Assembly (NCBI RefSeq): GCF_000987835.1
Contig: NZ_CP011308.1
Span: 1-64,000, forward strand
Source: Sulfurovum lithotrophicum
GTDB taxonomy: Bacteria > Campylobacterota > Campylobacteria > Campylobacterales > Sulfurovaceae
Length of the DNA: 64,000 nucleotides
Direction of reading: 5' to 3'
Made by a program: the position numbers and the translations under genes
Shown: in pieces, positions 50,071-55,982 of the stretch
Layout: every line of letters starts with the position of its first letter
Numbering within the stretch: position 1 is the first letter of the stretch
The notes under the pieces: generated by a model
Databases searched by the model: none
Told to the model about the DNA's origin: nothing
What the model saw: only the letters and a program-made list of their open reading frames with translations

Positions 50071-50159
50071 CTGTCGCTCCCTATGATGAATTTGTCTCTT
50101 TTGTGAAACATAGAATCATAGAGTATAGTGGTTACCAAAAGGTAACAAAGGAATAAGAT

Positions 50160-50693
50160 ATGAATAAAGTAACGCAGGCGATCGAAAATGATTCCATCGC
50201 TACACTTAAAAGTCTGCTTGAAGAAGGCGTAGATCTCAATAAACCGATCCTGATAGGAGAAGAGTACGATCTGGAGGAGTATGACGAGATCAGTCCATTG
50301 TTCTATGCCATCAGAAAATATGCTTCTCTGGAGCTGATAGAGTTTCTGCTTGAGAACGGTGTCGATATCCACAGTACAGACAGTGACGGCATCTCGGCTC
50401 TGGATATGGCGATTAAATTCAAACGCAAAGACCTTGTAAAGTTCTGTATGGACCAAGGGATAGATATCAACACTACTGCAAGGCGAAGTGGGATACTTCC
50501 TCTACAGTTGGCAGCCTGTTTCAATGATACAGAAATGATACAGATGCTTCTGGATGAGGGGGCAGACATTAATGCAACTGATGCCTCCGGGATGAGCGCA
50601 AAAGACTATGCCCGCAAACTCGGACAGAAAGGCGTGGTCGAATACCTTACCAAAAGAGGTGGCAGACATAATCTCTATCCTGAAGAGGGATGA
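50160..50693 (+). CDS. Ankyrin-repeat protein
   Basis: The 177-residue protein has about four ankyrin repeats: 'ISPLFYAIRKYASLELIEFLLENG', 'ISALDMAIKFKRKDLVKFCMDQG', 'ILPLQLAACFNDTEMIQMLLDEG' and 'MSAKDYARKLGQKGVVEYLTKRG' (each given by its landmark helices). It has no signal peptide or membrane segment, so it is probably cytoplasmic. AAAGGA precedes the ATG. A palindrome GTTACC-AAAA-GGTAAC (50131-50146) stands just upstream. The partner is unknown. Confidence 0.85.
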   Translation: MNKVTQAIENDSIATLKSLLEEGVDLNKPILIGEEYDLEEYDEISPLFYAIRKYASLELIEFLLENGVDIHSTDSDGISALDMAIKFKRKDLVKFCMDQGIDINTTARRSGILPLQLAACFNDTEMIQMLLDEGADINATDASGMSAKDYARKLGQKGVVEYLTKRGGRHNLYPEEG

Positions 50694-50747: not shown

Positions 50748-50781
50748 CTGTAACCATTCTGTAACTATTTTTTTCTATACT
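50748..50781 (+). promoter_or_regulatory. Pho-box promoter of the first porin
   Basis: CTGTAAC-CATT-CTGTAAC (50748-50765) is a direct repeat with 11-base period, the PhoB-box design. After exactly 10 bases comes TATACT (50776-50781). No -35 box is visible, as expected when PhoB replaces it. The same 34-base design stands before the next two transport genes. Confidence 0.75.
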
Positions 50782-50815
50782 TCCGCCATCTTAAACTAAA
50801 CAAGGAAGATAAACT

Positions 50816-52153
50816 ATGAAAAAAACCATACTTTCACTGGTGACTATTTCTGCTATTGCGACTACTGGTGCATTGGCGGACAGTGCAACAGATATTACTG
50901 AACTTAAAGCAATGATGACACAGATGAACAAGCGTCTTGCCAAACTCGAGGCTGAGAATAAACAGCTTAAATCTGAAGTCAAAAAGAAGTCCACTAAAAA
51001 GAAAACTTCTATGGCCAAAGCAACGCCATCCGAGAAACAGGAGAGAACGGATGCTGTTGTAGAGAAGTTTGAAAAGTCTACACCTGTATTTGCCAAGGCA
51101 TCCAAGCTCAAGTTTTCTGGTAGGCATTATCTTGGATTTGTACATGGTAAAAATGAAAACCACTTGACAGGAGAATCAAATAGTTACGATGACTTCGAAA
51201 CAAGAAGAAACTATATCCAGGTCAAGGCATATTTGTTCGATGATCCGAAGAGCTATATGAGAGTAACACTTGATACACATCAGGTAGGCAACGGCAAAGA
51301 TGTCAATAATGGGGATATTGTAAAAGGCGGTAATACCGGAGACTGGGAAGTACGTCTGAAGTATGCATATCTTTACATCAATGATATTCTTCCTTACACC
51401 GGCGTAGAGCTTGGACAGGCACACAGACCGTGGATCGACTATGAAGAACACCACGGATGGTTGTACAGATCTATTTCAAAAACGTTCGTTGAGAAAAAAC
51501 AGGATGCCGACTTTACCAACTCCTCCGACCTTGGTGTGAACTTCAAGACAAAAACGGAATACTTCTCATCTGAAATCGGCCTATTTAATGGAGAAGGGTA
51601 TCATGGGCTTCTGGATAAAGACGATACCAGTGGTTTAAGTTTTGAGTGGAGACTGACAGCAAATCTGCTTGGGACAGGGGAAAAACACGTACATAAGCAC
51701 AACCAGTATGCAGATGTTTCTTTTTATGGACAGTACAATAGTGATTTGATGAAAAAGGGTGAATTCAATCCCGATACAGGAGAGTTTGATGGTGATTTCG
51801 TCTGGTACGGCTTTAATGCCGTGTACAACCAGCCTGAATTCCTCATAGCAGGAAACTACTTGAAGTCAACCAAAGCAAGCCCGGCATTCAAGGGTGATGG
51901 TTTTTCTGTGAACGGCGAGTTGAGAATGTTGACCTTTGATGAGAGCCTTGATGATTGGAATATCATTGGTAGATATGATAAATGGGATCTCGACAGTGGT
52001 GAAGAGAGAGAAACATGGATTACCGGTCTCGCCTACACATGGAACAAAAATGTAGAGTTCATTCTGAACTACGAGGATGATACTGATACGCGAACAGTGG
52101 CTATAGACAATGAAACACAAAGAGTCCTTTTTACTGCTGATGTAAAGTGGTAA
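50816..52153 (+). CDS. Phosphate-selective porin-like outer-membrane protein (OprO/P type)
   Basis: The 445-residue protein has a signal peptide (MKKTILSLVTISAIATTGALA), a short coiled coil (about 25-60: 'ELKAMMTQMNKRLAKLEAEN') and a beta-barrel with 'FETRRNYIQVKAYLFDDPK' and 'VRLKYAYLYINDILPYTGVE', as in OprO/OprP-type porins. The C-terminus VLFTADVKW ends in an aromatic residue for barrel insertion. The Pho-box promoter supports a role in phosphate or polyphosphate uptake. AAGGAAG precedes the ATG. Confidence 0.8.
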   Translation: MKKTILSLVTISAIATTGALADSATDITELKAMMTQMNKRLAKLEAENKQLKSEVKKKSTKKKTSMAKATPSEKQERTDAVVEKFEKSTPVFAKASKLKFSGRHYLGFVHGKNENHLTGESNSYDDFETRRNYIQVKAYLFDDPKSYMRVTLDTHQVGNGKDVNNGDIVKGGNTGDWEVRLKYAYLYINDILPYTGVELGQAHRPWIDYEEHHGWLYRSISKTFVEKKQDADFTNSSDLGVNFKTKTEYFSSEIGLFNGEGYHGLLDKDDTSGLSFEWRLTANLLGTGEKHVHKHNQYADVSFYGQYNSDLMKKGEFNPDTGEFDGDFVWYGFNAVYNQPEFLIAGNYLKSTKASPAFKGDGFSVNGELRMLTFDESLDDWNIIGRYDKWDLDSGEERETWITGLAYTWNKNVEFILNYEDDTDTRTVAIDNETQRVLFTADVKW

Positions 52154-52260
52154 TTCCTTTCTTTTCCTATGCTGCCTTAGCATGGGATCCACGAACTTCT
52201 AAAACAGCGTGTACCCACTATCTTTCTGTGGGACATCCTCTCCTTCCAAATCTTATAAAT

Positions 52261-52294
52261 CGGTAACAGTTTTGTAACCATTTTTATCTATACT
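52261..52294 (+). promoter_or_regulatory. Pho-box promoter of the second porin
   Basis: CGGTAAC-AGTT-TTGTAAC (52261-52278), 10 bases, then TATACT (52289-52294). Period and spacing are identical to the first porin promoter; each 7-mer keeps GTAAC. Confidence 0.75.
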
Positions 52295-52325
52295 TCCTCC
52301 ATAATTCAAACCAAGGAAAAAATAG

Positions 52326-53477
52326 ATGAAGAAAATTGTATTATCAATGGCCGCAATGGCGACAGTGTCAATGGCTGCTTCAGATGTTCTGCATCCGCAT
52401 GAACGTATAGCAGAAAAAAAAGCGAATGACACAATAACGCATGCTGAAAAAGAGATTTTAGATAGATTTCATTTCAAAGGTGATCTAAGATTAAGATATG
52501 AGAGTATAGAAAGAGATGACAAAGATAATACGTATAGGAACAGGTATCGTCTAAGAATCGGTGCAGTGGTTGATCTTACAGAGGAACTACATTTTGAAGT
52601 AGGTATGAGATCTGGTTTTGCAAACCCGACTTCAGGAAACCAGACATTTCATGATGACGAGCCTTTGAGTGACTACTTTTTTCAGTCACTTAGATTTAAC
52701 GTTTTAGGTTTGGCTTACAAGTCGGGTAATTCTACTTTCAAAGTAGGGAGACAACCATACATGATGTACAGACCTATCAAGTCACAACTTGTTTGGGATA
52801 ACGATGTTTCAATGAACGGGTTGAACTACCACTATGAAGATGATACAAAGATCATTACTGCAGGTGTGAACCGCCCGACCCTGGAAGAAAAAGCGGTTGC
52901 CGAGGATGATGTTAACCTCTATTTGGCGCAATATGTGCACAAAACAAAATTGGACTTTGCAAAACTTAATTTGGGTGCGGGTATCTATTATTATGATGGA
53001 TTAAAAGGAAACACAACGCTTTTTGGCAAAAGTAAAGGCAATACCGTAGTAGATGGGCGATATGTCAATGATTACCACATTGTAGAGGGATTTGGTGAAC
53101 TGCAGTTTAAAGACCTGTTTGGTATGCCGTTTAAAGTTGCAGCAGGCGTTGTATACAACTTTGGTGCAGACGACAATAACTTTGGGTATGATCTGGGTGT
53201 TCAGTTAGGTAAAGTTAAACATGTCGGTGACTGGCAAGTGAAATACTCGTATACAGATATTGAAGAAGATGCAACATTTGGTGCATACTCTGACTCCGAT
53301 AACTTTGGTGGAGGTACTGCTGCTAAAGGTTCTGCAATTAGAGCAAAGTACAAAATGGGTAAAAACCTGTATCTCGCTGGTAACTTCTTCTTCGATACAC
53401 TTTTTGCAAGCAAAAGCAAAACAGGAGAAGAGGCAGACTATGAGCGCGTACAATTGGACGCCATTATCAAGTTTTAA
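52326..53477 (+). CDS. Putative porin, outer-membrane beta-barrel
   Basis: The 383-residue protein has a signal peptide (MKKIVLSMAAMATVSMAAS) and a beta-barrel body starting 'FHFKGDLRLRYESIERDD', with repeated aromatic-belt strands ('HFEVGMRSGFANPTSGNQTF', 'NSTFKVGRQPYMMYRPI') and the C-terminus 'VQLDAIIKF' ending in Phe. It resembles general 'putative porins' of Campylobacterota and is unlike the first porin. The Pho-box promoter places it in phosphate uptake. AAGGAAA precedes the ATG. Confidence 0.78.
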   Translation: MKKIVLSMAAMATVSMAASDVLHPHERIAEKKANDTITHAEKEILDRFHFKGDLRLRYESIERDDKDNTYRNRYRLRIGAVVDLTEELHFEVGMRSGFANPTSGNQTFHDDEPLSDYFFQSLRFNVLGLAYKSGNSTFKVGRQPYMMYRPIKSQLVWDNDVSMNGLNYHYEDDTKIITAGVNRPTLEEKAVAEDDVNLYLAQYVHKTKLDFAKLNLGAGIYYYDGLKGNTTLFGKSKGNTVVDGRYVNDYHIVEGFGELQFKDLFGMPFKVAAGVVYNFGADDNNFGYDLGVQLGKVKHVGDWQVKYSYTDIEEDATFGAYSDSDNFGGGTAAKGSAIRAKYKMGKNLYLAGNFFFDTLFASKSKTGEEADYERVQLDAIIKF

Positions 53478-53507
53478 AAATATCACTCAATTTATTTGAT
53501 TACATTT

Positions 53508-53541
53508 TGGTAACAAAATTGTAATACTTTTTTACTATACT
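53508..53541 (+). promoter_or_regulatory. Pho-box promoter of the Pit transporter
   Basis: TGGTAAC-AAAA-TTGTAAT (53508-53525), 10 bases, then TATACT (53536-53541). It matches the two porin promoters in geometry, with one base changed in the second 7-mer. Confidence 0.72.
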
Positions 53542-55116: not shown

Positions 55117-55134
55117 CCTGCCTTGTATCGCAAT

Positions 55135-55165
55135 GGTGTTTTTACACTTTTCCTGTAAAAACACC
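55135..55165 (+). terminator. Hairpin terminator after pit
   Basis: GGTGTTTTTACA (55135-55146) and TGTAAAAACACC (55154-55165) form a perfect 12-base-pair stem with a 7-base loop, followed by a pyrimidine-rich run (ATTTTCTCTTTCTTTTT). It begins 18 bases after the pit stop and separates it from the response-regulator gene. Confidence 0.75.
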
Positions 55166-55295
55166 GCATGATTTTCTCTTTCTTTTTCAAACTCCTAATA
55201 CTTTTTGACTATAATTAGATAAATGGATCACAATGATCCTTTTACAGGTCATTGCGTGCAAATAAGCATGGACAAACGAGGGGTTGGAGCAGCCA

Positions 55296-55982
55296 ATGGA
55301 TGAAGAACGCATAGAGATCGTTGTGATCGAAGATGAAGAGGATATTCTGGAACTCATAGAGTATCACCTTGCCAAAGAGGGATATGCAGTGACGGGTTTT
55401 CTCTCAACGGACAATGTAGAGCAGTTTCTCGAAGAAGAGACACCTGCATTGATGCTGGTGGACCGGAATCTTCCCGGAATGGAGGGAAGCGAGTTTGTTG
55501 CCCATCTCCGGAGTACAGGCTATGATATACCGGTTATCTTCCTTACCGCAAAAGACCAGGAGTTCGAGCTGGAAGAGGGCTTTATGGCCGGGGGGGATGA
55601 CTATATCTGTAAACCGTTCAAGCCCAGAGAGTTGGTATTGCGCATCAAAGCTTTGCTCCGTCGTACCGGTGCACTGCAGCGGCAGGATCGCATCAAATAC
55701 AAAACGTTGACCATGGACTTTACACAGAAGAAACTGTTTGTTAATAAAGCAGCCGTAGCATTGACCAATCTTGAGTTTAATCTTCTGCATACATTTTTGA
55801 AATATATAGACAAGCCTCTGACGCGTGATTTCCTCAGAGAGGAAGCCTGGGGTCAGGAGGGGGAAGGTGTCAATGACAATGCGGTCAATGTCGCCATCAA
55901 TCGGCTGAAGAACAAGATAGACCCTGAGAATGAAGAGAACTATTTTCATCCGGTATGGGGTGTGGGATACAAATTTTATTAG
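55296..55982 (+). CDS. OmpR/PhoB-family response regulator
   Basis: The 228-residue protein has a receiver domain with acidic pocket (IEDEED), phospho-acceptor Asp56 in 'LMLVDRNLPGMEG', and Lys86 in 'IFLTAKD', then a winged-helix DNA-binding domain ('LTNLEFNLLHTFLKYIDKPLTRDFL', 'DNAVNVAINRLKNKI'). The ATG at 55296 with GGAG upstream is preferred over a TTG four codons earlier. Its position after Pho-box genes suggests it is the PhoB-type activator, but no histidine kinase is adjacent; recQ follows. A TATAAT at 55210-55215 is its likely promoter, with only a degenerate Pho-like half site. Confidence 0.85.
   Translation: MDEERIEIVVIEDEEDILELIEYHLAKEGYAVTGFLSTDNVEQFLEEETPALMLVDRNLPGMEGSEFVAHLRSTGYDIPVIFLTAKDQEFELEEGFMAGGDDYICKPFKPRELVLRIKALLRRTGALQRQDRIKYKTLTMDFTQKKLFVNKAAVALTNLEFNLLHTFLKYIDKPLTRDFLREEAWGQEGEGVNDNAVNVAINRLKNKIDPENEENYFHPVWGVGYKFY

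Follow-up and report, generated by a model that had tools for sequence, protein, structure and literature searches.

Three PhoB-type promoters before two porin genes and pit point to a reduced Pho regulon lacking Pst and PhoU in Sulfurovum lithotrophicum

How PhoR senses phosphate is unsettled, and the standard model centres on the Pst transporter and PhoU, while Pit is usually regarded as a housekeeping transporter. A locus of the sulfur-eating vent bacterium Sulfurovum lithotrophicum, in which two porin genes and pit each follow a promoter of the Pho type, could show whether a Pho switch works without Pst and PhoU. The locus lies in the first 64,000 nucleotides of contig NZ_CP011308.1 (the window). 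Taken as a whole, it would be best explained as a reduced Pho regulon with genuine PhoB-type activator promoters, a reading to which we assign a probability of about 0.78. The features discussed are collected in Table 1.

Table 1 Positions of the features considered, numbered from the start of the window (C1 coordinates for the unlinked kinase gene).
Feature	Position	Strand	Basis
Candidate sigma70 promoter (TTGTGA, 17 bases, TATAGT) before the ankyrin gene	50101..50129	+	sequence reading
Fourth tandem site, GTTACCAAAAGGTAAC	50131..50146	+	directly after the ankyrin-gene -10, repressor position
Ankyrin-repeat protein (177 aa), a candidate for repression within the regulon	50160..50693	+	Pfam Ank; synteny
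Pho-box promoter of porin A: CTGTAAC CATT CTGTAAC TATTTTTTTC TATACT	50748..50781	+	exact pattern and sequence model
Porin A, 445 aa, predicted outer-membrane beta-barrel	50816..52153	+	predicted fold; best fold match OprP
Pho-box promoter of porin B: CGGTAAC AGTT TTGTAAC CATTTTTATC TATACT	52261..52294	+	exact pattern and sequence model
Porin B, 383 aa, Porin_5 family	52326..53477	+	Pfam PF16930, E 1.9e-17
Pho-box promoter of pit: TGGTAAC AAAA TTGTAAT ACTTTTTTAC TATACT	53508..53541	+	exact pattern, sequence model, pit promoters of relatives
Pit, PHO4-family phosphate transporter, 514 aa	53572..55116	+	PF01384, E 3.4e-110
Junction without the RR2-pstSCAB-phoU block of relatives	55117..55295	+	flank alignment to the closest relative; locus order
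RR1, OmpR/PhoB-type response regulator, PhoB-like	55296..55982	+	best NCBIfam match TIGR02154 (PhoB)
PhoR-like kinase, 339 residues, unlinked	C1:1785519-1786538	minus	homology; best NCBIfam match PhoR TIGR02966

The three 34-base promoters read exactly as the initial annotation described them and share one geometry, namely two GTAAY half-sites at an 11-base period, then 10 bases and TATACT, whose end lies 30–34 bases from the ATG in each case. This is the layout of PhoB-type promoters, with direct 7-mers at an 11-base period, the box over the -35 position and the -10 element at a fixed distance. The claim that such identity would hardly arise by chance holds up: the three are the only GTAAY-N6-GTAAY pairs on either strand of the window, compared with 0.135 pairs expected per 64 kb in second-order Markov shuffles, and no pair with TATACT at +10 occurred in 200 such shuffles. 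Across the 2,217,891-base genome, the pattern GTAAYN6GTAAYN10TANNNT has exactly three matches, all at this locus (reversed-pattern control: one match). A sequence model of related promoters likewise recovered these sites alone at E < 1e-5; as the model includes the three sites themselves, its informative part is the gap between them (to E = 3e-6) and the next best match in the genome (E = 0.14). Although the three sites fall within 2.8 kb on one strand, chance or recent local duplication as the origin of their likeness can be ruled out by rarity, by the shuffles, in which the chance expectation is far below one, and by conservation in relatives, as the two porin sequences are unrelated to each other and each promoter has been retained in front of its own gene.

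Candidate targets elsewhere in the genome comprised two-mismatch and weak model matches, and the six two-mismatch loci inspected precede genes without a clear phosphate role and are not put forward as targets. GTGACAT repeats before a TATAAT at C1:411110 were rejected as a Pho site as they precede a c-di-GMP riboswitch. This c-di-GMP-I-GGC element (L084:1692-1780; C1:411191-411279) lies within the leader of an open reading frame of 729 residues, the start of which is signal-like, and is divergent from a histidine-kinase-like gene. Autoregulation of RR1 was also set aside, the stretch just upstream of 55220 resembling a decayed box below the matrix threshold. No Rfam elements were found between 48000 and 58000.

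The link to phosphate comes from related loci. About 80 of these (0.91 Mb) were compared, and a 34-base matrix trained on 71 of their exact-pattern sites identified 140 sites, 126 of them before pit (46), porinA (19), porinB (24), pstS (23) or pstC (14), with zero in the dinucleotide-shuffled control. The enrichment before pit and the porin genes is partly circular, the matrix having been trained on exact-pattern sites of the same loci. However, the second half-site before pstS and pstC is mostly GTTTC or GTTAC, so these sites fall outside the training set and are largely independent. Its occurrence before pstS and pstC in relatives ties the promoter to phosphate. The expectation in the initial annotation that a matrix would find further phosphate genes was thus borne out by pstS and pstC in relatives and failed in this genome, where there are no pst genes to be found. 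By the sequence model, the box has matches in all 37 genomes of the genus examined; before pit it is kept in most closer relatives and missing from some Sulfurovum promoters. That GTAAC is a lineage-specific variant of the PhoB half-site, as had been proposed, is supported. In a second lineage (L043, L049, L057-L063, L075 and L076), pit promoters carry GTAAC-N6-GTAAC with different spacing, the -10 element being closer or a third half-site overlapping it.

It is highly improbable that the boxes are occupied by some other OmpR-family regulator or respond to a signal other than phosphate, with phosphate connected by neighbourhood only. The genome encodes about 15 further OmpR-type regulators and porins are common targets of this family, but the box that precedes pstS and pstC in relatives also occurs within the pst-phoU-regulator-kinase locus of other families. 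The reading of the three promoters as a Pho regulon appears well supported by the PhoB-type geometry, the pstS/pstC linkage in relatives and the presence of a PhoB-like regulator next door.

That regulator, RR1, is encoded where the initial annotation placed a PhoB-like protein and consists of a receiver and a winged-helix domain. Its score against TIGR02154 (171 bits) is below the 296-bit cut-off, and it is therefore called PhoB-like only. Aligned with E. coli PhoB, RR1 keeps Trp184, Gly185, Val190 and Asp192 of the activation loop, together with Val197 and Arg201, the last of which contacts guanine in PhoB (PMC3973317), and differs at Thr194, Asp196, His198 and Arg200. The change of Asp196 to Asn in the recognition helix is common to most regulators of the lineage; as a tentative idea, it might account for the replacement of C by A in the half-site, although the sources examined report no base contact by Asp196.

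No kinase gene was found near RR1. In a more distant relative (L054), however, a kinase gene stands beside a PhoB-like regulator and pit, and as a query this kinase has one clear homologue in the S. lithotrophicum genome (42% across the catalytic part, against 30% for the second-best match). The homologue contains HisKA and HATPase domains, and PhoR TIGR02966 is its best model, at a score below the cut-off. Its assignment as PhoR-like is supported by orthologues in other families of the order, which follow PhoU closely (phoU-regulator-kinase at four of five loci, directly after phoU at the fifth). All 37 genomes of the genus examined contain the kinase, as a single copy apart from the two copies in G030. 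Two distant kinases examined have a Cache-like sensor region (one below the Pfam cut-off), which the 339-residue kinase of the genus lacks. A gene for a calcineurin-like phosphoesterase (Metallophos, possible Tat signal; L113:2674-3519, C1:1784673-1785518) converges on the kinase gene and ends just before it.

The putative targets would serve both membranes. Porin A matched no Pfam family, and structure prediction (pLDDT 70) yields a barrel with OprP as the best PDB match (E 5e-12), at 14% identity and a TM of about 0.5, with general porins scoring nearly as well. For porin B, the predicted structure (pLDDT 71) resembles porins generally, and a PDB sequence search with both porins returned no match. 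In Pit, PF01384 spans the full length, and the protein is the sole PHO4 member in the genome (a single genomic match). Residues of about 412-487 form a long, charged, coiled-coil-like stretch with a weak FlbB match. The neighbours of pit are porin B and RR1, and no PitR-like gene adjoins it. In a survey of 926 genomes, Pit was often paired with the PhoU-like PitR, and pitR, when present, adjoined pitA with a sole exception (PMC13170248).

The initial annotation remarked on Pit rather than Pst as the target, which looks like the outcome of history and not like a design. In relatives, the locus runs pit-RR2-(acyltransferase)-pstSCAB-phoU-RR1-recQ, and the closest relative found (G011; PanD 99%, porin A 97% and Pit 93% identical) has the full set, ank-porinA-porinB-pit-RR2-pstS-pstC-pstA-pstB-phoU-RR1-recQ, with six boxes, before porinA, porinB, pit, RR2, pstS and pstC. 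Its porinA promoter 34-mer is nearly the same as that in the window. In the window, RR1 directly follows pit, and the flanks of these two genes correspond to G011 positions that are separated by 5.3 kb. Searches of the genome found no PhoU, no PstC and no PstB above cut-off, so the components of classical Pst/PhoU-coupled signalling (PstSCAB and PhoU) are missing. The three promoters and Pit are probably better explained as the remainder of a larger phosphate locus after deletion of RR2-pstSCAB-phoU, which leaves Pit as the sole recognised inorganic phosphate importer found in the genome. What remains appears to be a PhoR/PhoB system that has neither Pst nor PhoU, and no PitR beside pit.

The loss is not confined to this genome. 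In a Pit tree with 42 rows, the block switches between present and absent at the locus at least 9 times, 8 of these changes being forced by well-supported branches, although gaps in MAGs may inflate the count and 4 of the 13 ‘lost’ labels come from loci that stop shortly beyond RR1. Nine of the 37 genomes of the genus lack PstC (eight without any match, while G014 has only a weak match to another permease), and PhoU gave no match in eight of these nine and one match below cut-off in G018. In one relative without pst genes at its Pho locus (L030), an apparent alkaline phosphatase gene, identified by eye, lies between RR1 and recQ.

From these observations, we infer the following scheme for the reduced regulon. 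Under phosphate limitation, the PhoR-like kinase would phosphorylate RR1, two subunits of which would occupy the pair of GTAAY half-sites in head-to-tail orientation. With the box in place of a -35 element, RR1 would recruit sigma70 RNA polymerase to TATACT; E. coli PhoB also needs strict spacing between box and core promoter (PMC10294691). Activation of this kind, with an RR1 dimer touching sigma70, would be classical for PhoB, whereas the input would not be. The output would be two porins and Pit, a phosphate route from outer to inner membrane, and the switch would have no Pst/PhoU sensor complex to rely on. Enteric PhoR is kept inactive by way of PstSCAB and PhoU, and deletion of pstSCAB-phoU results in constitutive kinase activity (PMC11389368), so that phosphate regulation may have gone with these genes here. 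As there is no Pst or PhoU and no PitR adjoining pit, two possibilities follow: phosphate sensing by the kinase through some other route, or a regulon that is now constitutive.

The second of these possibilities, in which the promoters are of the PhoB type and depend on RR1 but are blind to phosphate, with the kinase locked on and pit and the porins constitutively high, is considered unlikely. It would fit the enteric precedent, the absence of PhoU and PstC from the genome and the lack of a PitR-like gene beside pit, where pitR normally lies. However, the kinase is conserved at 58–92% identity across the 37 genomes of the genus, including the nine without PstC, and the two-half-site boxes remain intact in PstC-less genomes, where plain -35/-10 promoters would do if the kinase were locked on. 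Conservation of kinase and boxes in Pst-less lineages thus favours continued regulation. That PhoR/PhoB still senses phosphate without Pst, PhoU and PitR, the kinase, itself lacking the Cache-like outer domain seen in relatives, reading cell phosphate directly or through Pit, is a tentative proposal that we would not yet put at even odds.

The reduced regulon may also have a repressed member. Directly after the -10 element of the ankyrin gene lies a fourth tandem site, and comparable 11-base tandems at -27 to -32 from the ATG occur in 13 of 25 related ank genes, counting the present one, and in none of about 130 regions upstream of seven non-target genes, the pattern having been chosen after inspection of the same sequences. 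PhoB represses or activates depending on the position of its site (PMC10294691), and as this site follows the -10, RR1 may repress the ankyrin gene when phosphate is limiting. This site, the unlinked kinase and the lack of PhoU went unremarked in the initial annotation.

To a specialist, the promoters themselves would be no surprise, but the repeated loss of the Pst and PhoU sensor complex within this one genus, with kinase, regulator and boxes kept, would be one. Pit also stands under a Pho-type promoter in much of the genus, and the box can serve as a motif when Pho regulons are annotated in Campylobacterota. S. lithotrophicum 42BKT is a cultured sulfur oxidiser (PMC5588614; phosphate and porins are unmentioned in the portion of the text available), and with its complete genome and close relatives that keep Pst it offers a clean comparison.

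Among known systems, E. coli PhoB/PhoR is similar in that two 7-base direct repeats at an 11-base period replace the -35 at a fixed distance from the -10, and in the guanine-contacting Arg201 and activation-loop residues kept by RR1. In contrast, the half-site is GTCAT in E. coli and GTAAC here, and the regulon here comprises pit and porins, without pst or phoU and with an unlinked kinase gene, whereas E. coli pitB has been excluded as a PhoB target (PMC10294691). Similarly, the phosphate porins OprP and OprO of Pseudomonas aeruginosa offer a parallel to porin A, whose gene has a Pho box and whose best fold match is OprP, although at 14% identity, a TM of about 0.5 and no Pfam match its phosphate selectivity, like that of porin B, is putative. 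Closer in taxonomy is Campylobacter jejuni, of the same bacterial order as Sulfurovum, where the PhosR box consists of GTTTC repeats at an 11-base period, a pattern similar to that of the GTTTC half-sites preceding pstS in Sulfurovum relatives. PhosS/PhosR is a phosphate-responsive two-component system controlling pstSCAB and phoX (PMC3197622, PMC9449129) and, unlike the system described here, keeps Pst as its main target, with adjacent kinase and regulator genes. Some Campylobacterales are without PhoP/PhoR in the 926-genome survey (PMC13170248). The promoter family is therefore a known one, of the Pho type, and the S. lithotrophicum locus is a variant of it in its GTAAC half-site and its Pst/PhoU-less state.
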